From: a virus
IMG/VR virus record: IMGVR_UViG_3300036900_000024
Location: 1 to 22,760 of that record
Direction: 5' to 3' (one strand)
Length of the DNA stretch: 22,760 nucleotides
Position 1 is the stretch's first letter, and every line of letters begins with the position of its first letter. Positions 3,428 through 21,122 of this stretch are shown here, in pieces. The notes under the pieces were generated by a model. The model saw only the letters and a program-made list of their open reading frames with translations. It ran no database searches and was not told the DNA's origin. Position numbers and translations under genes: made by a program.

Positions 3428-3967
3428 ATGGCTAAGCACCCTCTGCCCGACGCCGATGAGATACGCAAGCTGCTGGACTATAACCCGGATACCGGGATCT
3501 TTACGTGGAAGATCCGCACCGTTGAAGGGTTCATTGACCAGCATTGGTGCAACCACTGGAACTCTAAGTGGGCAGGAAAGAGGGCTGGCAACATCAATTC
3601 CGCCGGGTACTGCATTATCAATTTCCTGGGGCGCCAGAGGAAAGCGCACAGACTGGCGTGGCTTATAGTAAACGGCCGGTGGCCTCCAGAGCAGATTGAC
3701 CATATTAACGGCGATAAAAGCGACAACAGGATAGCTAACCTGCGTGAAGCTACGCGTAGACAGAATGCTATAAATACCCCAAAAAAACGGTCCAGCAACA
3801 ACCCATACAAGAATATTTACAAACGAGGGAAACGATGGGCGGTTTACGTTTCTGCTCATAAGAATATGCAGTACGTAGGGCTCTTTCGCACCCCAGAGGA
3901 AGCGCATAAAGCGTACTGCATGGCTGCCCGGAAGTTCCACGGAGAGTTTTTCAATCGAGGGCATTAG
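3428..3967 (+). CDS. HNH homing endonuclease with AP2 domain
   Basis: 179 aa on the plus strand, opposite to all structural genes. The N-terminus (IRKLLDYNPDTGIFTWK, residues 12-28) is the usual lead-in of HNH_3 enzymes. The HNH core runs about 72-110: H74 in AHRLAW, D91-H92 in IDHINGD, and N100-R101 with the NRIANLREAT stretch. An AP2-type DNA-binding domain follows at about 125-175 (NIYKRGKRWAVYV, then the GLFRTPEEAHKAY helix). Enzymes of this type cut DNA and spread themselves into phage relatives lacking the gene. The coding sequence is visibly more AT-rich than its neighbours, especially near 3690-3900, consistent with recent arrival. Its stop overlaps the convergent stop of the neighbouring minus-strand gene (TTAG). 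Confidence 0.93.
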   Translation: MAKHPLPDADEIRKLLDYNPDTGIFTWKIRTVEGFIDQHWCNHWNSKWAGKRAGNINSAGYCIINFLGRQRKAHRLAWLIVNGRWPPEQIDHINGDKSDNRIANLREATRRQNAINTPKKRSSNNPYKNIYKRGKRWAVYVSAHKNMQYVGLFRTPEEAHKAYCMAARKFHGEFFNRGH

Positions 3968-4203
3968 GTCAACTCAACGCCTAAAGCAGTTAGTTGGGTT
4001 TCAATGTCAGTGACATTGATCCTAAGAAAATCAGAGACATCAGCCCTAGACCGTTGGAGCAGCGTGTCGTCGAGCCCCGACCCGGTTATCGCATCCGCTA
4101 CCTTCATCAGCGAGTCCGCCTGCGACACCGCTGCCAGTCGCGAGACCAAGTCGGCCCGACGCGCCAGGAGCACCACGGCAGCATTTACATCTGCCACTTT
4201 CAC
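3964..4203 (-). CDS. Small helical protein downstream of the tail fibre
   Basis: 79 aa from a GTG that overlaps the fibre stop (GTGA). A longer reading exists upstream but would overlap the fibre gene by over 100 nt, so the coupled GTG is preferred. The protein is predicted mostly alpha-helical with regular Leu/Val/Ile spacing (VNAAVVLLARRADLVSRL near residues 6-23, and VTDIETQLTALGVEL near 64-78). It has no cysteine cluster, signal peptide or membrane segment. Small genes directly after fibres often encode fibre-attached or assembly proteins, but I recognise no family. Its stop abuts the HNH gene's stop. Confidence 0.75.
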   Translation of the reverse strand: MKVADVNAAVVLLARRADLVSRLAAVSQADSLMKVADAITGSGLDDTLLQRSRADVSDFLRINVTDIETQLTALGVELT

Positions 4204-5489
4204 CTGAGCCGCGCCTCCAGCGCCTCGATGCGGGCCAATGCCACCTGGAGCGCGCGCGTGAGGTAGGCAATCCAGTTGTCGGCCGGCATCATCAGCATTG
4301 CATCGGCGCAAGACACGAACCCGTCGCTGTCAACGCGCTCCGGCATCCCCTCGCACTTAACTGCCTGAACATACCGTGCATAGCCGGCGCGCACCTGGTC
4401 CTGCGCCAGAAAACCGGCTTCCGGTATCCCGCTTTCCTCCGGCGCCTCGTAGGTGCCACGCTTCAGGTATGTCACCGGCCGCGCCGTCATCACCCACCGC
4501 AAAGCGTCGTCCTCCGAAATCTCCTCGATGCCGCTTTTAAGCCGCGCGTCCGAGGTGGCGACGAACGCGCCTCCTCCCATCGAGGTGCCGCCGCTGGCGA
4601 AGAATGAGAAATTAGACCCTCCGCTTGAGAACGGTCCGCCGCCTGTAGTGTTATAAATCCATCCGCTCACGGCGAATGAAGCTGATCCGGCGCCGAATAC
4701 AGGCCCGATGAAGTTCCACGTCCCACCATCGTCCATCGTAAGCTTCGGTGTTCCCTGAGAGTTCGTGATCTGGATGCTACCGCCAGGGTTTGCATTTAAT
4801 AGTTGCGTATTGTTCGAGGAATTTACGCGTAGAATCCCTCTTGCCGTCCCTCCGGTGTCCTTCGCACCAAACGACTGATTGTTGTCGATGACAACGGCGC
4901 CGCCCGTAACGGTAATCTGCCCCGCTATAGAGGCGCCGCCAGACGTGGAAATGAGACCTGCTGCTCTTACGATACCCGAGAAGGTGCCCGTGGTAGCGGT
5001 CAGAGGCCCCGAGAAGGTGCCCGTGGTAGCCGTCAGAGGCCCCGAGAACGTGCCAGAGGTAGCCGTCACAGGCCCGGAAAAGGCCGGTGTCAGCACATCG
5101 ATATTCGTACCGTCCGATGTGTAGAACTGGCACATGCCTGGCGTGAGCGTCACAGTCCGGCCCGCGCCCGTCGTCAGGACCACGTTGTGCGCGCCCGTCG
5201 TGCTGTTCCGTGCCCAGCCTATGCGCGCGACCGGAGGCACCGTCACAGAGCAGTTGGAACCGAGCGCCCCGATAAAGTTCCACATCGCAAGCCGGCCCTG
5301 ATCCGGCGCGTTGTTCGCGGTGCTCAGCGTCTGCGTCGGGCCGGACAGTGCAATCGGCGTGTTGCCTGCCGCACCCTGCTCCGTTACCAGCCATGCGGCA
5401 TCGGCGATCGGTCCCCATGAATTGCGGACCGACGGATCCAGCGGCTGCATCTGCGCAATTCGCATCAGGGGCGTATATGTGGTCGCCAC
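4200..5489 (-). CDS. Tail fibre with S74 intramolecular chaperone domain
   Basis: 429 aa from a GTG 6 nt after the preceding stop. The N-terminal part (about 1-135) is beta-rich and may attach to the tail. Residues 138-170 are three tandem 11-residue repeats (SGPxTATxGTF). A Gly/Ser/Asn-rich shaft follows to about 310. The C-terminal 120 residues form a Peptidase_S74 / endosialidase-type chaperone domain beginning at SDARLKSGI (S313-K318), with S and K spaced five apart as in the self-cleaving Ser-Lys dyad of this family. The end (LARIEALEARLR) is a coiled coil with a trimerisation motif. Family knowledge says this domain trimerises the fibre and then cuts itself off before Ser313. The protein is probably one of two receptor-binding proteins, with the tailspike at 7287-8963. 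Confidence 0.9.
   Translation of the reverse strand: MATTYTPLMRIAQMQPLDPSVRNSWGPIADAAWLVTEQGAAGNTPIALSGPTQTLSTANNAPDQGRLAMWNFIGALGSNCSVTVPPVARIGWARNSTTGAHNVVLTTGAGRTVTLTPGMCQFYTSDGTNIDVLTPAFSGPVTATSGTFSGPLTATTGTFSGPLTATTGTFSGIVRAAGLISTSGGASIAGQITVTGGAVVIDNNQSFGAKDTGGTARGILRVNSSNNTQLLNANPGGSIQITNSQGTPKLTMDDGGTWNFIGPVFGAGSASFAVSGWIYNTTGGGPFSSGGSNFSFFASGGTSMGGGAFVATSDARLKSGIEEISEDDALRWVMTARPVTYLKRGTYEAPEESGIPEAGFLAQDQVRAGYARYVQAVKCEGMPERVDSDGFVSCADAMLMMPADNWIAYLTRALQVALARIEALEARLR
4980..5078 (-). repeat. Three tandem 33-bp repeats in the fibre gene
   Basis: Three consecutive 33-nt units encode SGP-V/L-TAT-S/T-GTF within the fibre shaft. The second and third units are near-identical in DNA; the unit first in the protein (5046-5078) differs at several positions, as expected for recent expansion of an older repeat. 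Copy number may vary among related phages and change shaft length. Confidence 0.85.
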
Positions 5490-5495
5490 GTCTCG

Positions 5496-6239
5496 TTACC
5501 CCGCTGGTGCGGCCATCGCCGCCTGTGGTGGTGGTTCGGGCGGCAAGCCCTTGCGGCGCCGCTCCTCTGCTCGTGCTGCTGTCAGCCGCTCGTGATACTG
5601 CTGCAACCAGGAGACCGCCTGCCGCGGATCGTCCGACTGCGCACCGAAGTTCGCCATGTAGCCGGCGATCTCGACCATGCAGGAGGCGACTAGAAGATCC
5701 GGGAACGCCACCGACAGATAGCTAGTCTGGTTGTCCGTTGACAGAGTTGCGGGCCGCCACGTCCCCGTCACCCGCACCGTGAACGCCAGGATCGGGGCGG
5801 GCGCTATGATGGCGTTCTGGTCATCCAGCATGGCGAAGTAAGTCGAACCGAATACCGGCGTGCCAGTCACGGACGTATCGGGCCAGATCAGGTTGACGTA
5901 ATCGAGCGACGCCCGCATGGCCGGGATCCAACTCGTGCCAACGCGAATGTCCAGACGCTCGACCGTGACTGGGTTCGTGTAGGCCAGCGGAGCGCCCTGA
6001 AAGACGATCGGATCGGCCACCTGAACCGGCATCCCCACCAGCGACAGCACCGAGTTGTTCGGCGTGCAGATCAGCGTCGTGTTCTGGCCGTGCGAGGCCA
6101 GCAGATCAGTCATGTCCCGCAGCGCCCGTAGCTCGCCGTTCTGGATCGCAGTGGGGATGTAGGCAGTGTAATCGGCGGCCGGGTTGACGGTCTGCTGCGC
6201 GAGTTCGGCAAGCGCGGCAGTGAGGTCGTCATAGGTCAT
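5496..6239 (-). CDS. Head-tail adaptor/stopper-like protein
   Basis: 247 aa, with the ATG overlapping the previous stop (ATGA). The N-terminus is helical (YDDLTAALAELAQQT, then IPTAIQNGELRALRDM). It is followed by a beta-rich centre with VERLDIRVGTSWIPAMRASLDYVNLIWP and a block YFAMLDDQNAIIAPAP, then a helical C-terminal end (VSWLQQYHERLTAARAEERRRKG) and a Pro/Ala tail. The pattern, an N-terminal helical bundle with a small beta insert carrying surface loops, is what I know from SU10/P22-type adaptor proteins that sit between portal and tail tip. Direct coupling to another adaptor-like gene supports this. Family placement is from overall pattern, not a diagnostic motif. Confidence 0.65.
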   Translation of the reverse strand: MTYDDLTAALAELAQQTVNPAADYTAYIPTAIQNGELRALRDMTDLLASHGQNTTLICTPNNSVLSLVGMPVQVADPIVFQGAPLAYTNPVTVERLDIRVGTSWIPAMRASLDYVNLIWPDTSVTGTPVFGSTYFAMLDDQNAIIAPAPILAFTVRVTGTWRPATLSTDNQTSYLSVAFPDLLVASCMVEIAGYMANFGAQSDDPRQAVSWLQQYHERLTAARAEERRRKGLPPEPPPQAAMAAPAG

Positions 6240-7081
6240 CGGAAATACGCGCTCAGATCAGGCGCCAAGTGCATGGGCGCGTGCTCGGTGTCCGCGTCCG
6301 CTGCCTCCTGCCATATGTCCTTCGCCAACAGGGTGAGCCCCTGAGTGCGGGACGGAGCCCATTTCACCGACAGCGCCGCAGCCACATCGGCGCACCACGC
6401 CTCGTAGAAATTGAACCGGACATCGAGCACGCCACCGTTCTCGATCTGCGCGTCGCTCAACCGTACGAAGGCCCAGTACAGCAACGTGTATGGTCCTGCC
6501 GCATCTGGCACCGGCCACACATTGATGTTCATCGGGCCGGAGGCCGGCGACTTCTGGAACCAATAGGAGGTGGGCGGGGACTGCTGGAGCTTCACCGGGA
6601 TCATCGCGTAGTCGGTTCGCGAGATCGGCGTCATGTAGGTGTCGACCAGATCAGAGCCGACCGTGATCCTCCGGTACACGTCGAAGATGTCCATGACAGA
6701 GGCATCGACGGCGTAGATCGCCTGACCCTGCACCATCGGCGTGGCTATCAGGCTCATCTTCCAGAGGTTGATGCCCCTGTTCGCCCACCGCGATTGCGTG
6801 AGGTTCATCGTCCGCCTGGCGCTCACGATGTGCTTTGTCTCAAGCTGCGTCGCCTCGATCCCGCAGCGCTCGTAGACCTCGATCAGCAGATCTGACAGCG
6901 GAGGATTGAACTGCGCGTTTTCTCCAGCGGGCGACGCGCTGCCCTCGATAGGGCTGTTACCGATATTGAAGTCGCCGATGGCGCTGCTGAAGCCGCCACC
7001 ACCGCCCGCTCCTCCGCCAGCTGGGGGCGCCCCGCCGGCACCAGCGGTGAACTCATCAAAGGTAGGGACGAGGACTGTCAT
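6236..7081 (-). CDS. Adaptor-like neck protein
   Basis: 281 aa from an ATGA-overlapping ATG. The first 60 residues are Gly/Ala/Pro-rich and look disordered. The folded part starts near residue 61 (PLSDLLIEVYERCGI) and continues with RRTMNLTQSRWANRGINLW and ISRTDYAMIPVKLQQSPPTSYWF. A strand-rich section with MNINVWPVPDAAGPYTLLYWAFVRL follows, and a C-terminal helix (FYEAWCADVAAALSVKW). The -RxxYxxxP-K-QSPPTxYW- plus -WPVPD- combination is typical of P22 gp4-like and tubular-protein-A-like adaptors in short-tailed phages. It probably contacts the portal or the nozzle. The long Gly-rich leader is unusual. The exact adaptor type cannot be decided by eye. Confidence 0.65.
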   Translation of the reverse strand: MTVLVPTFDEFTAGAGGAPPAGGGAGGGGGFSSAIGDFNIGNSPIEGSASPAGENAQFNPPLSDLLIEVYERCGIEATQLETKHIVSARRTMNLTQSRWANRGINLWKMSLIATPMVQGQAIYAVDASVMDIFDVYRRITVGSDLVDTYMTPISRTDYAMIPVKLQQSPPTSYWFQKSPASGPMNINVWPVPDAAGPYTLLYWAFVRLSDAQIENGGVLDVRFNFYEAWCADVAAALSVKWAPSRTQGLTLLAKDIWQEAADADTEHAPMHLAPDLSAYFR

Positions 7082-10547: not shown

Positions 10548-11456
10548 TTACGACGTAGGGGCTGTCCACCAAATACCGCGGGGATTTTTGATGCCCGACC
10601 CGTAGCGCTCGAACCCGATGACGAGCAGGTTCCCCGTCGTGGGATCGACCTGCAAATCCATCTCGAATGGAGTGCGCTCGTAGAACACAAGGCCCTTGAC
10701 GCTCGTGGTAATCCCCCAGGCGAAGTTGCTCGTGAGGAACTCGGAGACCGCGAATCCGCCAGGCAGCGCGCCGCTCGACAGGATCGCCGACACGTCGTTG
10801 TTCGCCGTGCCAACGCGCAACTCGGTCTTGAACAGCCGTTCCGCCTGCCACTGAAGCGCTAACGGTACGATCACCTTCTCGCCGCGCGTCATCGACTGAA
10901 GCCCGGCCTGATCTGGGAACTGCCTGATCTGGTTCAGCGCCGTCTCGACCGCGCTCTCGTTGAAGTCCAGATCGACGGTCGGCCGGTTGGCGTAGGTGCC
11001 GTTGTCGATCGGGTGGTCGACCGCCGCGAGCGCCTTGCCGTCACCACCGAACTGCGGGTTGAACACCGTGGCAGAGTTCAGAAGCTGGTGGACCAGGATT
11101 TCCTTCGTCTGCGCGAAGCTCTCCATCAACCCCATGCTCTGCGGGTTGAACTGATCCTTGTAGAGATTGTCGTCCAACGCCTCGCGGGTGATCGCGAAGC
11201 CCAGGCCAACGGACCGATGCTCGATATTCCAGACGAAGCGCTCGCCGGCGGCGTTGTCGAAGCTGGTTGCGTTCCCTTCGCCTTTGAGTTGGGCCAGACC
11301 GGTGTAGCGAGCCTCGGCAACGCGCTCCAGCGCCATCTTGCTCGTGCCCGTCGCCACGAACTCGCGCCACCGGGTCGGGATCTGCGGATACTTGCCTTCG
11401 ATGTCGGCGAGACCGGGGAGCAGAAAGTCCCGGATTTGGCTTCTGTTGATTGCCAT
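10548..11456 (-). CDS. Major capsid protein (Mu gpT-like)
   Basis: 302 aa; TAGGAG lies 9 nt upstream of the ATG. The sequence fits the Mu gpT-type HK97-fold capsid family: a basic N-terminus (NRSQIRDFLLPGLADIEG), a central NPQSMGLMESFAQTKEILVHQLLN helix region, the AVDHPIDNGTY segment near residue 145, and the ending FERYGSGIKNPRGIWW at residues 282-297. Length is normal for a gpT-like subunit without a covalently attached scaffold. It lies downstream of the accessory head gene, with scaffold candidate, portal and terminases further upstream, the usual order. Family placement is from recognised sequence pattern. Confidence 0.88.
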   Translation of the reverse strand: MAINRSQIRDFLLPGLADIEGKYPQIPTRWREFVATGTSKMALERVAEARYTGLAQLKGEGNATSFDNAAGERFVWNIEHRSVGLGFAITREALDDNLYKDQFNPQSMGLMESFAQTKEILVHQLLNSATVFNPQFGGDGKALAAVDHPIDNGTYANRPTVDLDFNESAVETALNQIRQFPDQAGLQSMTRGEKVIVPLALQWQAERLFKTELRVGTANNDVSAILSSGALPGGFAVSEFLTSNFAWGITTSVKGLVFYERTPFEMDLQVDPTTGNLLVIGFERYGSGIKNPRGIWWTAPTS

Positions 11457-11468
11457 TGCCGGGCGCTC

Positions 11469-12086
11469 CTATGCCTGACCTGTCCGCGTCCCAGCCGGGT
11501 ACGGATTGGTGTTCATCATCACTTCGAGGATCTGGTTGTCGTTCAACTCGCTGTAGTTGAACGGGGCGCCGTTGGCCGGAGCACTGACGATCCTCAGGAT
11601 GCGGAACGGCAGCGTCGCCGTGTTGGCCGGCGTCGCATCCAGCGCGCATGTGCTGATAAGCGCCGGGGCCAGCGTCGGAACGCCCGAGGTGCCAGTGAAA
11701 ATGTCAACGTTGAGGCCGATGCTGCTCTGCGTGATGGCGGTTCCGCGCATCTGCGCCTGGAACGTCATCAGCGGGTCATTGTCCACGAAGCACTCGACCA
11801 CGGTCGTGCTGGCCAGAGTCGGCGCCGTCCAGCCTGCAAACCACTCGACCCTGCCGGTCGCGGCCGACAGATACCGGCAGCCGCGGAAGATCCCGAGGAT
11901 CGTCGTGTCGCCCTTGGCGAACAGCCGCACCGTGCCATCGGTGAACAGCTTGCAGGGGTCTCCGAACGCGATCTGGGTCGCGTAGTTGTACGCGATGTTG
12001 AAACTGCGCTGGGCGTAGTTGGGGGAACCTCCAGCGTATTGCCGGCTGGTAGAAAAACCGCTGGGGGCAAGCGTGTTCGCTGCCAT
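11469..12086 (-). CDS. Capsid accessory/decoration protein candidate
   Basis: 205 aa. The start is the ATG with GGAG 7 nt upstream (product MAANTLAPSG); an upstream in-frame codon lacks a ribosome site. It is beta-rich (ATQIAFGDPCKLFTDGTVRLF, WTAPTLASTTVVECFVDND) and has no signal peptide or membrane helix. Immediately upstream of the gpT-like capsid gene, this is the usual slot for a decoration or capsid-stabilising protein of similar length in Mu- and HK97-type clusters. I recognise no diagnostic motif, so the name is contextual. Confidence 0.65.
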   Translation of the reverse strand: MAANTLAPSGFSTSRQYAGGSPNYAQRSFNIAYNYATQIAFGDPCKLFTDGTVRLFAKGDTTILGIFRGCRYLSAATGRVEWFAGWTAPTLASTTVVECFVDNDPLMTFQAQMRGTAITQSSIGLNVDIFTGTSGVPTLAPALISTCALDATPANTATLPFRILRIVSAPANGAPFNYSELNDNQILEVMMNTNPYPAGTRTGQA

Positions 12087-12148
12087 GGGTGACTCCGCTT
12101 CAAGAGCGGCAACCACACGGCGCGTGGGTAGCCTGGGGTTATTCGGGA

Positions 12149-12464: not shown

Positions 12465-12764
12465 TCAACGGCTGTGGCGAAGGGCTCTGGCCGGGAAGGC
12501 CGCCGGCGCCTTGGGGGCGGCAACGCGCTCCGCCAGCAGTTTCCCCAGCAGATCATGCAGCCTGGCGATCTCCCGGTTCCTGGCCTGCAGCGCTTGCCCC
12601 GCCAAGTCCAAAGCCGACCGCAGGCACGCAATCCGTGTTTCGGCCTTGATCTCCCCGTCGAACGTGACGGCGATAGCGGCCTCCTCCAGTTCGGCAATCC
12701 GCGCTGCCTGCTCGGCAAGCTGGTATCCGGCGCCGTATAGCCGCAACTCCTCCTCGGTCTGCAT
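12465..12764 (-). CDS. Coiled-coil protein before the module gap
   Basis: 99 aa from an ATG overlapping the preceding stop (TGATG). A longer reading frame from 13094 is a shadow of the upstream gene. Most of the product is helical (ELRLYGAGYQLAEQAARIAELEEAA and LRSALDLAGQALQARNREIARLHDLLGKLLAERV). It has two coiled-coil stretches separated by a short beta segment (AVTFDGEIKAET). There is a basic Ala/Pro tail. This is the last gene before the terminator. It may assist scaffold or head assembly; no family is recognised. Confidence 0.75.
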   Translation of the reverse strand: MQTEEELRLYGAGYQLAEQAARIAELEEAAIAVTFDGEIKAETRIACLRSALDLAGQALQARNREIARLHDLLGKLLAERVAAPKAPAAFPARALRHSR

Positions 12765-13216
12765 CAATCGTCCTCCACCATCCGCTCCTGATCCGGCGCC
12801 GGTCCGATCGACTTCTTGATCCCGCGCCCCATTTGTCTGGACAGCCCGAGCCGCTGCATCTGGCTCGCCACCTGGTGCTTGGCCGCAAACCCGTCCAACT
12901 CGCGCGCCTCGTCGGTGATCTCTTTCGGCCGCTCCATCAGCATCTGGCCGCCGCGCACGATCTCCGCGCCGGCCTGCAGCCGCGTGCCGCTCAGTTCGGG
13001 GTGCCGCTCGGCAGGGACCGGCGTCCAGCCGTTGGCGTCGAGGTTCACGAGATGCTCGATGTCCTCTGACCCCATGAACGTCTTGCGCTTCCACTCATAG
13101 TGCATGCCGGGCGGAATGCGGCTGGTATCAATGTCATAGCGGTTGCCGGGCGTCCTGATCTGGAGCCGCCCCGGCAAGGAACGCTGGTCGCTGCGCTGTA
13201 TCGGTCGCTGGGCCAT
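12764..13216 (-). CDS. Conserved phage protein of unknown function
   Basis: 150 aa, with TGATG junctions on both sides. Features are a short basic start, the block RIPPGMHYEWKRKTFMGSED near residues 33-52, the strand-turn HLVNLDANGWTPVPAERHP near 55-73, and a GGQMLMERPKEITDEARELD segment near 89-108. It closes with a basic helix and an acidic end. The PGM-YEWKRK and LMERPKEI blocks look familiar from phage head modules, but I cannot name a family. There is no membrane segment or catalytic motif. Confidence 0.8.
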   Translation of the reverse strand: MAQRPIQRSDQRSLPGRLQIRTPGNRYDIDTSRIPPGMHYEWKRKTFMGSEDIEHLVNLDANGWTPVPAERHPELSGTRLQAGAEIVRGGQMLMERPKEITDEARELDGFAAKHQVASQMQRLGLSRQMGRGIKKSIGPAPDQERMVEDD

Positions 13217-13428
13217 CAGGCCGTCTCCTTCCCAGTCAGATACGCCGCGATCTTGCGTGCGGCGGCTATGAAACTGTCTACGTCGCCGACGAGGTTCATG
13301 CGCAAAGCCATCTCCATAGCCTGCGCGCGCGCGTAGTCATCTTGCATCAGAGTCGTGATATGCGGCGCGGCCGGCGTTCTTTCCCATTCGGCCGCCCATT
13401 CATTCTTAGGCTCCTGATAAATAGCCAT
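13216..13428 (-). CDS. Small protein downstream of the scaffold candidate
   Basis: 70 aa, ATG in a TGATG overlap with the scaffold candidate's stop. It begins MAIYQEPKNEWAAEWE, has a helical middle (YARAQAMEMALRMN), and a C-terminal helix with VDSFIAAARKIAAYL. There is no cysteine, signal or membrane segment. It is probably an assembly helper in the same transcript; function unknown. Confidence 0.75.
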   Translation of the reverse strand: MAIYQEPKNEWAAEWERTPAAPHITTLMQDDYARAQAMEMALRMNLVGDVDSFIAAARKIAAYLTGKETA

Positions 13429-14339
13429 CAGTTCAACCTCCCCTGGCTTCTGAGCTGCGCCTTGAGCGCCGCGTATTTCCGATACCGCCCTGGCACCAGA
13501 ACCCCATTCACCATCTGGTCTTCGATCGGCGTATCGCCCATCGTGTCGTCCGCTGCCTCGCGCTCCTCGGCCGTCAGCCGCACCTCGCCGGCCCGTGGCG
13601 TCGCACCACCGGCCCGACGCGACACCGGCAACGCACCGCCGTTCACCTCTCTACGGCGCGGCGCCGGATCCTCGTCCGCCTCCGTCTGCCGCTGCTGGCG
13701 TCCACCGCCCAGCCTGGAGTCGATGTGGTCGAAGTAGGCATCGCTGTCGACCGCGATCCCCTCGGCCGCCGCATCGTAGTGCGCCGCGGCCACCTTCGCC
13801 CGGAACCGCTCGCTGGTCTTGAACTCGGGATGATCCTTGATCCACTGCCGCTGCCGTGGCGAGTACTGCGCCAGGTCTACCCCACCGCTCTGCTGCCGCG
13901 GCGCCGGCGTCGCCTTCTCTTGCTCCAGCGCTTCCTTCATCCATTGCTTCTTCTGGGTGATGAGCGCGATTTGGCTTTCCGCCCGCGCAAGTGCCCGGTA
14001 CACCTTCCCCGCCTCGGCGTAGTTGCCCTCGGCGTTCAGCGTCGCGATCTGCGCCTCCAGCCCAGATGCCTCCGCCTCAGTTGCAGCGAGCGAAGCATCA
14101 AGCGACCGCTCCTCTGCCTCCCAACGATGGCCCGTTGCCGTAGCAGCCGAGCCCCTTGCCTCATCCCGCTCACGCTCTGCTCGTTGCGCGCGCTCCTGTT
14201 CGGCCGCGCGCGCCCGCCGCTCCTTCGCCAGCAGTTCCCGCAGATCGTCGTCCGACACCGCCTCATGGCCGTTGCCGTTGGGCTTCGACGCCGCACCTCC
14301 TGTGCCAACGTCGTCCTCGTCGTCGATGTAGCCACTCAT
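13428..14339 (-). CDS. Scaffolding protein candidate
   Basis: 303 aa, with GGAG 9 nt upstream of the ATG. It begins with an acidic, Gly/Asn-rich disordered leader. A long charged coiled coil follows at about residues 28-145 (LRELLAKERRARAAEQERAQ, then LEAQIATLNAEGNYAEAGKV). Next comes a second region near 155-225 containing QYSPRQRQWIKDHPEF and YFDHIDSRLGG, then an Arg/Glu-rich linker. A basic helical C-terminal tail (YRKYAALKAQLRSQGR) closes the protein. Coiled-coil middle plus basic C-terminal helix is the layout of capsid scaffolds, and the gene lies between portal and major capsid as expected. No protease gene is evident. Confidence 0.7.
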   Translation of the reverse strand: MSGYIDDEDDVGTGGAASKPNGNGHEAVSDDDLRELLAKERRARAAEQERAQRAERERDEARGSAATATGHRWEAEERSLDASLAATEAEASGLEAQIATLNAEGNYAEAGKVYRALARAESQIALITQKKQWMKEALEQEKATPAPRQQSGGVDLAQYSPRQRQWIKDHPEFKTSERFRAKVAAAHYDAAAEGIAVDSDAYFDHIDSRLGGGRQQRQTEADEDPAPRRREVNGGALPVSRRAGGATPRAGEVRLTAEEREAADDTMGDTPIEDQMVNGVLVPGRYRKYAALKAQLRSQGRLN

Positions 14340-14343
14340 TGGG

Positions 14344-14580
14344 TTACTCCTCCGCCAGCGCGGCGGTCAGGGTTGCTTTCAGCCAGCGGGATACGTGATC
14401 CCGCAGCAGCACCGCTGGATCGATTGCGGCCAGCCGGCGGCGCGCTTCGGCTGCCATATCGGGATTCATCCGTAGCGCGCGCTGCATCGTCCCCATCGAC
14501 GGCACAACCGCGTTCTCCCGGAGCCCGCTATCTCTCGCGCACGTCGCGAGCAGTTCATCGAGGGTGGGCGTTCCACTCAC
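14344..14580 (-). CDS. Small helical protein
   Basis: 78 aa from a GTG overlapping the GroES-like gene's stop (GTGA). Helical throughout (PTLDELLATCARDSGL, MQRALRMNPDMAAEARRRLA, VLLRDHVSRWLKATLTAAL). There is no motif I recognise. It lies between the GroES-like gene and the scaffold candidate in the same transcript. Confidence 0.7.
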   Translation of the reverse strand: MSGTPTLDELLATCARDSGLRENAVVPSMGTMQRALRMNPDMAAEARRRLAAIDPAVLLRDHVSRWLKATLTAALAEE

Positions 14581-14981
14581 ATAACGATGTCCGGCTGCTT
14601 GAGGATCAGGCGCACGTCCACATCCTCGACCACCCGGCAGCGACGATTGCCGAGTTCAAAAGCCCAGGTATCGCCCACGTTGATCGCGACCCAGTCGCCG
14701 ACCTTTGGCGTAATCCCTCCCCAACGGTGTGTGGCGTCTTCCGAGAACGCCAATTCACCCATTGCGAGAACGAGACAGACCTTGCCTTGATGGAGGTCTT
14801 CTTTGCGCATCCCCTGGTTCTCTGTGAGCAGCAGCCCGCCGCGTGTCCGCTCTGGCCGGATGTAGACCGCCAGCAGCACCTCGGTGCCAAGCGGCTGCAC
14901 GTCGGCCAGATACGGGCCGAGCGCCTCCATGATCTCCTGCTTCGGGTCGACCGTGTGTAGCATCGCAACAGCGGTTGCCAT
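14577..14981 (-). CDS. GroES-like (Cpn10-fold) protein
   Basis: 134 aa, with GAGGG just upstream of the ATG. Residues about 30-127 follow the GroES barrel: PLGTEVLLAVYIRPERTRGGLLLTE corresponds to the first strands leading to a mobile-loop-like segment (residues 49-63, ending RKEDLHQG). GKVCLVLAMGEL, then PKVGDWVAINVGDTWAFEL, then CRVVEDVDVRLI match the remaining strands. The first 28 residues have no GroES counterpart. It could be a phage co-chaperonin that works with host GroEL in capsid folding, or a head protein reusing the fold. Both are inference. Its place in the head-assembly cluster fits the first. Confidence 0.75.
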   Translation of the reverse strand: MATAVAMLHTVDPKQEIMEALGPYLADVQPLGTEVLLAVYIRPERTRGGLLLTENQGMRKEDLHQGKVCLVLAMGELAFSEDATHRWGGITPKVGDWVAINVGDTWAFELGNRRCRVVEDVDVRLILKQPDIVM

Positions 14982-15200
14982 TCAGCCCTCTACCTTTGTG
15001 AGTTCCCGCGCCTCGGCGATCACCCAGCGCAGCGCTGCCAGGTATCCCATCGCGCCCCGGTAATCCTCGAGCGTCGCACACTTGTTCTCGACTACGATGC
15101 GCGCCCGTTCGTCGTAGTGCTCCACAATCCGCGGCCCCAGGCGCACCCAGAGCCGCGGGTCGTGGTAGGTCGGTCGGCCGTCGTCAGGCAGGAGGGTCAA
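14982..15200 (-). CDS. Small protein, TTG start
   Basis: 72 aa from a TTG that overlaps the preceding stop (TTGA); no better start is visible. The sequence begins TLLPDDGRPTYHDPRLW and becomes helical (YDERARIVVENKCATLEDYRG, then LAALRWVIAEARELTK). The second half looks like a helical hairpin. It is directly followed by the GroES-like gene. Function unknown. Confidence 0.7.
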   Translation of the reverse strand: MTLLPDDGRPTYHDPRLWVRLGPRIVEHYDERARIVVENKCATLEDYRGAMGYLAALRWVIAEARELTKVEG

Positions 15201-16559: not shown

Positions 16560-16790
16560 TCAGTTGGTTCCCTTCACCCAATCCGTGAACCGCTGCCACG
16601 GAGTGCGACGCTGCCACGCCACCTCGCGCAACTCGTTGGCGAGCCGCTCGATCTCGGCCTGCACCGCAGCCGCCTCGATTACCTCGGCCTCCGCTGCCTC
16701 GCGCTGCGTCTGGATCGCTCGCAGTGCCGCTTCCTTGTTGGTCCTACGTAGCAAGGCGGCGGCACGCTCCTTCGCTGTTCTGTGGGCCAT
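16560..16790 (-). CDS. Small basic coiled-coil protein
   Basis: 76 aa using the ATG in TGATG overlap with the portal stop; a GTG one codon upstream is less likely. It starts basic (AHRTAKERAAALLRRTNKEAA), continues as a heptad coiled coil (TQREAAEAEVIEAAAVQAE) and ends WQRFTDWVKGTN. There is no cysteine or membrane segment. Its position directly after the portal gene suggests a portal- or scaffold-related helper. Confidence 0.75.
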   Translation of the reverse strand: MAHRTAKERAAALLRRTNKEAALRAIQTQREAAEAEVIEAAAVQAEIERLANELREVAWQRRTPWQRFTDWVKGTN

Positions 16791-19156
16791 CACTTCTTCC
16801 CTTTCGCCGCCGGCCGCGGAGCCGGCTTGTTCGCCACCTTCCGCTTGATCTCCAGCTCCTTCAGCCCGCGCTCGTGCTCCGCAGCGGTGGCCGCCACATC
16901 CAACCCGTGCCCAGCCGCAGCGATCCGGTGCCCGGTCATCGTCTGCTCGTGCTGGTGCTGCATCTCCTGCGTCGCCCGCTCGTGCTCCGCAGCCGCCCGA
17001 ACCTGCTCGACGTTCAGCCGCTCGTGCTCAACCGCCAGCCGCTCGTTCTGTATCCTCTCCTCGCTCGCCAGGTCCGCAGCCTTGTTCTGCGCCTCAGCCT
17101 GCAACTCCACGCCCTGGTGCTGCGCCACGAGAGCCTCGTTCGCTGCCTTGCGCTGCTGGTCGACGCTATCGTTCTGCGCCTTCGCCACCTTGGCCTGCGC
17201 CTCGATCATCCGCGCCTGCCCGATCAGCGGATCAGGCGGTGCCGCCCCACCAGGCGCCGGCTGCGGGGCGGGCTGGTGCAGGAACTGGTCGGCATCGTTC
17301 ACCCCGATCGACTTCCAAGCCCGGTCATGCACCGCCACGCGGTCGTAGATGTCCGGATTCTGCCCGGCCACCGTCACCATCGCCGTCGCCAGCATGATGC
17401 GGTGCATCTGGCTCGGCACGTTCGGATCGGACGCCGGTACCAGATCAATGTCGGTGAACTCCGCCGCCGCCTGCCACTGACGCGCCGGGCTCTTGTTCAG
17501 CCGCCACAGCGCCTCTGGGTTCTCCGCGAAGCACTCTTTCAGCAACTGCAGCTCTCGCGCCTGCGAACGATACAGCCGCTTGTGGACCGAACTCTCGATG
17601 TGCGTCGCCTGCTCGATCATCGCGAGGATGGTGCCGACCGGGATGTCAACCCTTCCCTCGCCCATCGGTGCATCGGCCGCGCTCGATAGCTGCCCGCTCT
17701 CCTTGGCAATCATGTCGGCAAACTGGATGAACGTCGGGCTCGCGTCCTTATACGGCAGCGCCATCATGGCCTTGCGGATGTCGTCTACGCCCGCCGCATC
17801 GATGTCCGGCCACTCGCCCGGCATAGGCTTGATCTCGTTGGTCGACATGCGGGTGCCCTTGAGCTTCACCCCAGACGGCGCGTTCGCATACATCCCCGCC
17901 GTGACCAATATGCGCCAAATCGCCCTTAACGCTTTGGTTTGATTCCCGAGCAGATGCAGGTGCCCGAGGCACAGGAAGCCCAGCGCCGGGATCATCCCGT
18001 AGTGGACGAACTGCTGCTTGCGTTCGAACTCCTCGTCGCCGAACTTCCACCGCCGCCGGATGTCCAGCACCTGGCGCGTGTCCCGCTCCAGCGTCACCGC
18101 ATAGGAGACCGGCAGATCACTGTCCGCGTGCGAGTCGCTTATGCCATAATCCGCCAGGACCTGATCGCAGGTCGTCTCGTAGATGCAGTAGGGAATGTCC
18201 TGCGGGCGCAACCCGAACGGCCGCACGCCGCTGACATCGTCCTTCGCCCTCTGGTCTGCCGACTGCGACGGCTGCGGCATCGACAGCGGCACATCCCGCC
18301 AGTGCCCGAACTTCTGCATCCGGCGAACCTGCGCCCGCGTCATCTCCGCCCGGTGCGTAATCCGCGTCGCCGTGTCCAGGTCGGTGGCATCCTCCGACAC
18401 GATCAGGTCCATCATGTCGATGGCCTCGGACACTGGCCTCCTGCGCAACGGATGCTCATAGACCTTCTTGAACAGATTGCCGCCGAACATCAGACCGAAC
18501 AGCCCCCGGTCCATGTCGGGGTAGTACTCGGTCGCGACCGTGGTCAGGTAGTAGTTCATGTCGCGCTCTAGGGCCTGCGCAAGCTCATCCTGCTCTGCGT
18601 CGTCCCCCTCGTGCGTCTTGACCTTGCACGGGCCGCCGCTTGGCAGCAGCTCGGCAGACGCCGCCGACTGCGCCTTGACCACCGCGCCCAGCAGCATCGG
18701 ATGCCCGATGCGCGACGCCGGCCCCTCGTTCTTGTCCACGTCATCGATCGTCAGACCGAGCAACCGCAGCCCCTCGGTGTAATTCTCGATGAACAGCTTC
18801 CGGCTACCTTCATCCGCCTGGATGCCGTCAAGGATGTCCTGCGCCAGCCCCGGCAAATCACCATCGGTGTCGATCGCCAGATTGTCGCCGAACGTCGATG
18901 GCGGCTCGGTGTTCTTGCCGCGATGCACAGCGGGTGCCGCAAGCGTCACGCTGCCGTCGTCGGCGATCTCTACCGACAGCACGCCGTTCATCGGCGCATC
19001 GGCCACCGGATCGGCGCCGAAGCCCTGCCGTGGGTTCGCGCTGTAGTTCTGCTCGCGGGTGTAGCCGTCAGGCATCGGTGCGGGTTCTCCACACACCCAG
19101 GCCGGCGCGGCGGGATGGCAAGCTGCGGTTGTAATATTCTTTCGTCGCGGGGGCAA
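16790..19156 (-). CDS. Portal protein
   Basis: 788 aa if read from a TTG at the far end; an ATG at codon 28 (19075) with GGAG 11 nt upstream is an equally good start, giving 761 aa. The central part has the mix of helices and strands of large podovirus portals (FIENYTEGLRLLGLTIDDVD near 123-142, and DRGLFGLMFGGNLFKKVYEHP near 216-236). The C-terminal 110 residues form a long coiled coil (ERLAVEHERLNVEQVRAAAE, then ATQEMQHQHEQTMTGH). This fits the barrel-like extension of P22-like portals reaching into the capsid. Next to the terminase genes and just upstream of head genes, it is the usual portal slot. Forms the DNA entry ring. Confidence 0.8.
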   Translation of the reverse strand: MPPRRKNITTAACHPAAPAWVCGEPAPMPDGYTREQNYSANPRQGFGADPVADAPMNGVLSVEIADDGSVTLAAPAVHRGKNTEPPSTFGDNLAIDTDGDLPGLAQDILDGIQADEGSRKLFIENYTEGLRLLGLTIDDVDKNEGPASRIGHPMLLGAVVKAQSAASAELLPSGGPCKVKTHEGDDAEQDELAQALERDMNYYLTTVATEYYPDMDRGLFGLMFGGNLFKKVYEHPLRRRPVSEAIDMMDLIVSEDATDLDTATRITHRAEMTRAQVRRMQKFGHWRDVPLSMPQPSQSADQRAKDDVSGVRPFGLRPQDIPYCIYETTCDQVLADYGISDSHADSDLPVSYAVTLERDTRQVLDIRRRWKFGDEEFERKQQFVHYGMIPALGFLCLGHLHLLGNQTKALRAIWRILVTAGMYANAPSGVKLKGTRMSTNEIKPMPGEWPDIDAAGVDDIRKAMMALPYKDASPTFIQFADMIAKESGQLSSAADAPMGEGRVDIPVGTILAMIEQATHIESSVHKRLYRSQARELQLLKECFAENPEALWRLNKSPARQWQAAAEFTDIDLVPASDPNVPSQMHRIMLATAMVTVAGQNPDIYDRVAVHDRAWKSIGVNDADQFLHQPAPQPAPGGAAPPDPLIGQARMIEAQAKVAKAQNDSVDQQRKAANEALVAQHQGVELQAEAQNKAADLASEERIQNERLAVEHERLNVEQVRAAAEHERATQEMQHQHEQTMTGHRIAAAGHGLDVAATAAEHERGLKELEIKRKVANKPAPRPAAKGKK

Positions 19157-19466: not shown

Positions 19467-21122
19467 TCATGCGAGCCCATACTCCTCGGCCACCGACCGC
19501 TTCCTGCCATGGAACCACAGCGCCGCGTCCTGCTCCGCCTCGACCTCGCTCGCCAACTGCGCCAGACCGGTGCGCCGCATGTACATCAGCGCCTGCGTCG
19601 CCGTGTCGAACAGGTCGTCATGTCTCGCGCGAGGGAATTGCGCGACGTTGTCGATCATCAGGTCGGCCCACTTGGTCTTGGGCGCGTAGACCAGCCCGCC
19701 CGTGAACAGCGGCACCACCGCATGCGCTCGCGCCGTCTTGTCCCCTTTGGGATCGATGGCGATGAGCTGAAACTCCTCTTCGCGGGTCAGACGACGCAAC
19801 TCCTGCACCACTGAGATGCCGGACGCCTTGCCCTCGACCAGCACCGCATCGGCTTCCCGCCCCTTGCGCCGCGCGGTCTCCTTGATGCGCTCGACCAGGT
19901 CATGCAGTTCGAGGCGCTCCTGCCAGGCATGCAGCAGCATGATGCGCGGCCGGTTGCGCCACTCGAACACGCCCCAGACCGAGCAAGCCGACCAGTCGTT
20001 CTGCTGCTTGTCGGTGTAGGCGGTGTCGACCGAGACGCAGATCCACTCGAAGTCGGGCAGGCGCGTGCGGGACCGCATCACGCCGTCGACCTCTACCTCG
20101 CGGACCCAACTGTCCTCCTCATCCTCCGGCGGCCAGACACACCACCAGTCTCGGCGAATAATGCCGCCCCCACGCGGGACCGGCGATTGCTGGAACTGTC
20201 CTGCCCAGGCAAATGGACCAAGCTGCTGCGCCTGACGCCGCATCCATCCGGCATCGAACCGCTCTGGCCACAGTGGCTCTCCTTCCTCAGTGCGGGGGTC
20301 TGACCAGCCGATAGATGTGCGGCAGTGCCTAGCTGGCTCATACTCTGCTGGCAGGCAGAGGTGGACGAAACCACCACGATCCAGCACATGCCCAGACAGG
20401 TCGCGCTCTCCGAGGCGCTGCATGATGATGACTTCGGCGCCATTCGTGGGATCGTTGCTCCGCGTCGTCCACACCTCGTCGTAGGCGCGGATGACGGTCT
20501 CACTGACCTTTTCGCTTTCCACCTCGTCGGTCTTGGTGGGGTCGTCTATCAGACGGATGATGCCGCCTTTGCCAAGTGACTCCGGTATGCCGGTGCTGAT
20601 CCGACTGCCACCAGCCTCGTTGTCGAACTGCTCTTGGTTGTCGCGGTTGGGCGATATCTGAACTCGATCCCCCCATCTGTCGGCATACCACGTGCTGCCA
20701 ATAAGACGGCGCGCAGTGACCCCATCACCCTGCGCTTTGTTGGCCCCGTAGCTTGCGCACAGAAACCTCACGCCGGGACCGACCAGTGGGTTTTCGGGGT
20801 CTGGAGCTTTCGCCCACGTCCAGCACGGCCACGCTATGGATGTCAGCAGCGTCTTGCAGTGGCGAGGGGGGATGTTGATGAGCAGCCGCTTGATCTGTCC
20901 GGCAGAAACGGCGCTTAGGTGCTCGGCGATGGCTTCCAAATGCCACCCGCCAACGAACGGCGCCGGATCGAACCAGGGCCACGCGCGCTGCAGGAACGTG
21001 TAGAGCGACGCCTCGCACGCCAGCGCATCTTGCACGCGCAGCTCGCGCTCGATCTCCGACAGGACGAATTGCGCGCTACCGCTGGACAGCAGGTCGTCGA
21101 GGAAAGCGAGCGCCTCAGACAT
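19467..21122 (-). CDS. terL: Terminase large subunit
   Basis: 551 aa. The ATPase has a Walker A at residues 85-91 (PPRHCKT, a cysteine where many relatives have Gly, Met or Leu), a Walker B-like strand ending LIDDP (191-195), and a coupling-type segment VIIMQRLGERDLSG (231-244). The nuclease domain follows, with acidic residues at D366 (SVDTAY), E430 (VLVEGKASG) and D502/D503 (RHDDLFD), as expected for the RNaseH-like metal centre. The whole matches TerL of the COG5410/TIGR01630 type. It powers DNA packaging and cuts the concatemer, docking on the portal. The start overlaps the stop of the small membrane gene. Confidence 0.93.
   Translation of the reverse strand: MSEALAFLDDLLSSGSAQFVLSEIERELRVQDALACEASLYTFLQRAWPWFDPAPFVGGWHLEAIAEHLSAVSAGQIKRLLINIPPRHCKTLLTSIAWPCWTWAKAPDPENPLVGPGVRFLCASYGANKAQGDGVTARRLIGSTWYADRWGDRVQISPNRDNQEQFDNEAGGSRISTGIPESLGKGGIIRLIDDPTKTDEVESEKVSETVIRAYDEVWTTRSNDPTNGAEVIIMQRLGERDLSGHVLDRGGFVHLCLPAEYEPARHCRTSIGWSDPRTEEGEPLWPERFDAGWMRRQAQQLGPFAWAGQFQQSPVPRGGGIIRRDWWCVWPPEDEEDSWVREVEVDGVMRSRTRLPDFEWICVSVDTAYTDKQQNDWSACSVWGVFEWRNRPRIMLLHAWQERLELHDLVERIKETARRKGREADAVLVEGKASGISVVQELRRLTREEEFQLIAIDPKGDKTARAHAVVPLFTGGLVYAPKTKWADLMIDNVAQFPRARHDDLFDTATQALMYMRRTGLAQLASEVEAEQDAALWFHGRKRSVAEEYGLA

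Follow-up and report, generated by a model that had tools for sequence, protein, structure and literature searches.

Why does a virus carry a gene resembling the co-chaperonin GroES among the genes that build its head, and does the product still work with GroEL? The window analyzed here is the entire 22,760-base IMG/VR record IMGVR_UViG_3300036900_000024, which is likely a fragment of a genome. It contains an intact ORF of 134 amino acids at 14577-14981 on the minus strand, with its ATG at 14981 and its stop ending at 14577, and the presence of a GroES homologue at this position is confirmed. The ATG is preceded by a purine-rich stretch (AGGTAGAGGG) and abuts the TGA of an upstream 72-aa ORF with no gap. 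The three nearest IMG/VR relatives of the ORF are 86, 70 and 66% identical to it, and dN/dS values of ~0.2 against these relatives (0.096/0.46, 0.27/1.50 and 0.29/1.41) indicate purifying selection and thus a conserved, real protein gene. The gene, the parts of its product discussed below and its neighbors are as follows.

19467..21122, minus strand: terminase large subunit (family matches)
16790..19156, minus strand: portal protein (family matches)
14982..15200, minus strand: 72-aa ORF, its stop abutting the GroES start; precedes GroES in five of the compared relatives' loci
14577..14981, minus strand: GroES/Cpn10 homologue, 134 aa (profiles, model, alignment)
14904..14981, minus strand: N-terminal addition, residues 1-26, with an H-x-x-D-P motif and a predicted helix at residues 13-25
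14787..14858, minus strand: mobile loop, residues 42-65 (limits approximate), six residues longer than in E. coli GroES
14826..14834, minus strand: LLL, residues 50-52, equivalent by alignment to the GroEL-contacting I25-V26-L27
14694..14759, minus strand: roof hairpin stretch, residues 75-96, length kept
14344..14580, minus strand: 78-aa ORF 3' of GroES, conserved in near relatives
13428..14339, minus strand: scaffold candidate, 303 aa (position; conserved in relatives)
12764..13216, minus strand: 150-aa head-cluster ORF, conserved in relatives
11469..12116, minus strand: 215-aa ORF before the capsid gene, conserved in relatives
10548..11456, minus strand: major capsid protein (MCP), 302 aa, about 33 kDa (Phage_capsid_4, E 4.1e-8; phrog_371)
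6236..7081, minus strand: probable tail adaptor (31% to the annotated Pam1-type adaptor of phage DSL-LC04)

Read along the minus strand, the head cluster runs from terminase and portal through smaller ORFs to GroES, the 78-aa ORF, the scaffold candidate, small ORFs and the MCP. An earlier, sequence-only reading placed the GroES-like gene between a scaffold candidate and the portal; the portal holds, while the scaffold is a guess from position, the ORF at 13428-14339 having no match in Pfam, PHROG or NCBIfam. The indication of a short tail comes from the adaptor match, in a window that holds the genes of a fragment only. Outside the head cluster, the minus-strand ORF at 4200-5489 has, close to its end, a Peptidase_S74 intramolecular chaperone domain (Pfam E 2e-8), and its product is a probable tail fiber or spike protein, and an HNH endonuclease gene at 3428-3967 (Pfam HNH_3 E 4.8e-19; AP2 below cut-off) lies on the plus strand, opposite to its neighbors, and is probably a mobile endonuclease gene.

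Searched as a single sequence, the window protein matches PHROG 3188 ‘co-chaperonin GroES’ at E 3.2e-7, Pfam Cpn10 at E 0.0016 (18.8 bits, below the 21.1 cut-off) and NCBIfam GroES at E 0.022 (14.7 bits, far below the 120-bit cut-off); the corresponding PDB search gave no significant match. Its best matches in the viral library are GroES proteins of uncultured phages, and while the window protein falls below the Pfam cut-off, the related phage GroES proteins tested are all above it (10/10). With a profile built from 50 relatives, 18 of the 23 PDB matches with E values of 10 or less are Cpn10/GroES chains of bacterial, mitochondrial and plastid origin; E. coli GroES is matched at 1.4e-4 by this profile and at 1.8e-3 by a second one, with residues 27-127 of the window protein aligned to it (profile probability 95). 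An AlphaFold2 monomer model from 47 aligned sequences (pLDDT 89.4, pTM 0.85) has exclusively Cpn10 proteins as its top structural matches in the PDB, including 8wuc (Z 9.5, 91 residues aligned, 2.9 A) and 1aon_O (Z 8.9, 88 aligned, 2.7 A), and the best Foldseek match of the model to Cpn10 chains has an E of 1.2e-5. Weaker matches are those to T4 gp31 (Z 6.8-7.8) and to oxidoreductases that contain a GroES-like domain (Z no higher than 6.1). Given its relatives, the window protein can be assigned firmly to the GroES/Cpn10 family, as judged by sequence profiles and the predicted fold. The original description of a GroES-like gene is thus borne out by the sequence profile, by the predicted fold and by the conserved order of the genes, and structure prediction, proposed at the time as the step in which another fold could emerge, returned the GroES barrel in the monomer model.

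Relative to E. coli GroES, the window protein has ~25 extra residues at its N-terminus, with residue 26/27 aligning to GroES residue 1/2; the addition noticed earlier is therefore real, although about 25 residues long by alignment rather than 28. We compared it across 190 family ORFs (the window, 3 phage records and 186 IMG/VR loci). Between 24 and 27 residues precede the GroES core in 171 of these ORFs, and the H-x-x-D-P motif is present in 97/190. One locus in which GroES is broken after the first strand (L110) was excluded from the set of representatives, and L146, L112 and L141, which belong to that set, were excluded from its alignment. RW-type relatives carry a different N-terminus, and some syntenic relatives are near GroES length (QDWS535, 113 aa; MW202785, 107 aa; MW202796, 111 aa); by these sequence comparisons, the extension is clade-specific.

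The mobile loop is longer than that of E. coli GroES but retains the contact triplet. G49-LLL-T53 aligns with G24-IVL-T28 and keeps the G-G-hydrophobic-T pattern; in E. coli GroES, I25, V26 and L27 are described as part of the GroEL interface (PMC5653362). The three positions of the triplet are all hydrophobic in 179 of the 190 family ORFs and not so in 11, and variants among syntenic relatives include IIR in Pag-Yong1 and IDL in QDWS535. The Gly-to-Gly spacing of the loop is 26 in the window protein and its three nearest relatives, 24 in 184/190 family ORFs, and 25 and 27 in one each, versus 20 in E. coli GroES; in alignments the four-residue difference also separates the family from the co-chaperonins of M. 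tuberculosis, T. thermophilus and Chlamydomonas. The suspicion of an altered mobile loop was correct with respect to length, the loop being six residues longer than in E. coli, but not with respect to the GroEL-contacting triplet, which is kept as LLL for IVL; the comparison with a GroEL-binding loop, suggested as a check for residues 49-63, is this one, with its spacing of 26 vs. 20 and retained hydrophobic triplet. The kept triplet favors a working co-chaperonin over a structural protein.

E. coli GroES resembles the window protein in its barrel, in the loop pattern of two glycines, hydrophobic triplet and threonine, and in a roof hairpin of similar length (G75-D96 spacing of 21 vs. 19), with Trp106 occupying the region of Tyr71. 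It is about 22% identical in the structural alignment and is without the 25 extra N-terminal residues and the 6 loop residues. T4 gp31, also a phage co-chaperonin with a mobile loop longer than that of GroES (22 vs. 16 residues), has no roof loops and gives a chamber some 8% larger (PMC6318259); the window protein, in contrast, keeps the roof length. No sequence relationship between the window protein and gp31 was detected by hhalign (probability 0.5, E 0.12). We rejected an assignment to the gp31 type, as the roof hairpin is present; kinship by sequence was not detected either. Among GroES proteins of the same module, that of MW202796 (L290:4636-4971) has a roof stretch of 11 residues versus 19, as in gp31, and the roof may have been lost on more than one occasion.

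The usual reason for a phage to encode a co-chaperonin is that its capsid protein exceeds what the chamber can hold, as with gp23 of T4. While gp23 has a mass of about 56 kDa, the window MCP has just 302 residues and should fit an ordinary GroEL chamber without a larger cage; the explanation given for gp31 is thus not transferable to this locus.

Co-chaperonins in short-tailed phages have been described before. GroES is one of 13 core genes in 82 HTVC023P-type podovirus genomes (PMC9599517) and the genome map of the CRP-901 type names it as well (PMC10149686), so the surprise that the sequence-only reading expressed at finding one in a short-tailed-type genome was unwarranted. HTVC023P-type pelagiphages and Roseobacter phages CRP-901/902 have a homologous GroES between portal and MCP, both of which are also homologous to those of the window. 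These GroES proteins have low identity to the window protein (about 25% for 023Pt_psg01) and different N-terminal extensions, and the mobile loop of the window clade is two residues longer than that of HTVC023P-type/CRP-901 GroES. The closest named GroES relatives that we found are those of the metagenomic phage MW202675 (Manatee Spring; 36% identity over part of the protein) and of Caulobacter phages RW, GB2A, RLK and KcrB (32% over part of the protein), all with the same head cluster as the window; MW202675 GroES has an N-terminus of the window kind, and several large genes lie between it and the portal. The chaperonins of soil viruses in PMC8390657 are described there as GroEL-like and are therefore not relevant to this gene. 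Phage GroES is thus already known as a core gene, to which the window adds another member; in a search of mainly open-access literature we found no discussion of its constant place next to the MCP of this family or of its longer loop.

That place is nearly invariable. Among 50,697 phage records, 19 encode an MCP related to that of the window, and all 19 carry GroES (16 according to gene tables, three Caulobacter phages by protein match; the GroES genes of GB2A and RLK are annotated as hypothetical). The gene lies between portal and MCP in 18/19 records (in MinM2 across the start of the record; in GB2A, RLK and KcrB the order was read from match coordinates). The exception is vir526, assigned to Methanomicrobiales, in which GroES comes before the terminase. 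The Cpn10 of vir526 (BK063670, L292:109-465; Pfam E 1.6e-9) has a shortened roof stretch.

For IMG/VR, related loci comprised the best 80 of 524 and the best 80 of 595. Among the loci listed, those found with GroES and extending at least 6 kb downstream contain the MCP in 22/22, 33/33 and 30/30 cases, and those found with the MCP and extending at least 4.5 kb upstream contain GroES in 8/8 and 40/40 cases; some contigs occur under two locus numbers, so these counts are not numbers of independent phages, and the 40 loci, from the best 80 of 595, are a narrow sample, all at least 90% identical to the query in MCP. The portal is within the upstream flank in 16/25, 9/34 and 34/34 loci of three sets. 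We take the missing portals to be largely the result of flank limits, given that some 9 kb separate the end of the portal gene from GroES in MW202675. One IMG/VR contig, 3300010965_000005 (90,582 b; L083, L087), has two GroES copies mirrored about its midpoint, which points to a palindromic assembly artifact and not to two genes.

GroES and MCP distances are correlated (Spearman 0.83, 57 non-redundant pairs, 0/2000 permutations), a correlation for which shared descent alone may be the source. When bacterial and archaeal genomes were scanned with the GroES alignment, no relative turned up, and a scan with the MCP alignment led to two loci. One, on a 487-kb contig of Phenylobacterium deserti (L297:3311-8888), shares the gene order portal, GroES, MCP and is probably a provirus; the other is on a short contig with just 1.4 kb before the MCP. 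A search for structures already solved for members of the MCP or portal family found none and gave a single weak match, to a fructokinase, at E 0.019.

With which GroEL might such a protein work? A search for GroEL in 37 related records of 39-91 kb, some of them fragments and most of the size of complete phage records, was negative in all 37, while the same search was positive in 14/14 control genomes; the most likely partner is therefore the GroEL of the host. We favor, with a probability of roughly 80%, the interpretation that the window protein serves host GroEL as a dedicated lid and is produced alongside the head proteins whose folding it helps. Co-production is suggested by the location of GroES in the head cluster and by its start abutting the stop of the preceding gene. 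Seven copies would probably form a dome, as in other members of the family, and the dome would bind host GroEL through the hydrophobic triplet of the mobile loop, replacing or supplementing host GroES. Head proteins would then fold in the chamber capped by this lid, the MCP being the most likely substrate in view of the linkage between the two genes. With its greater length, the mobile loop should raise the dome and so enlarge or loosen the chamber, an effect also assumed for T4 gp31. A more specific version, in which the longer loop together with the conserved N-terminal helix and the H-x-x-D-P motif reshapes the host GroEL chamber or holds the MCP or scaffold, is put forward tentatively, and we regard it as doubtful.

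The linkage by itself would fit a scaffold-like or structural role, too. A protein that uses the GroES barrel in the prohead or virion (as a surface protein, plug or scaffold partner), without working with GroEL, could account for the constant position next to the MCP among the head genes and for the GroES of a virus assigned to Methanomicrobiales, and the extra N-terminus and lengthened loop could serve as its binding surfaces. Such a protein would have no need of the GroEL-contacting triplet and its glycine, which most of the 190 ORFs keep, and the viral library matches are all either named co-chaperonins or unnamed. We therefore consider this role improbable, and the structural function once suggested for the gene product is not supported, to judge by the kept triplet. 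The triplet alone would also suffice for a regulator or decoy lid that keeps host GroEL away from host proteins or influences the host stress response and has no part in phage folding, and the lack of a phage GroEL in the records searched is consistent with this; a position beside the MCP in the head cluster, and not among early genes, makes it very improbable. The protein could instead be an ordinary spare GroES, an extra lid for cells in which host GroES is limiting or shut off, with nothing special for head proteins. Its core fold, roof length and triplet resemble those of GroES, the 37 records lack a GroEL and the MCP should need no special chamber, which makes this a realistic, if not the favored, explanation. 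It does not readily account for a longer loop in 190/190 family ORFs (spacing 24-27 vs. 20), for clade-specific N-termini under conservation, or for the invariable linkage to a single family of MCPs.

A dedicated lid for host GroEL remains our preferred interpretation, and the occurrence of GroES beside one MCP family in every testable case makes this family a test case for phage-encoded co-chaperonins. Hosts of phages with the GroES-MCP pair span Pelagibacter, Roseobacter, Caulobacter, Alcaligenes and cyanobacteria, in addition to the virus assigned to Methanomicrobiales, and the customary reason of an oversized capsid protein does not suit an MCP of 33 kDa. The question can be tested in relatives that are in culture and whose hosts are known (Caulobacter phage RW, HTVC023P, CRP-901 and QDWS535). 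If the lid does reshape the chamber, host GroEL would be a head-assembly station specific to one MCP family, in very different hosts.
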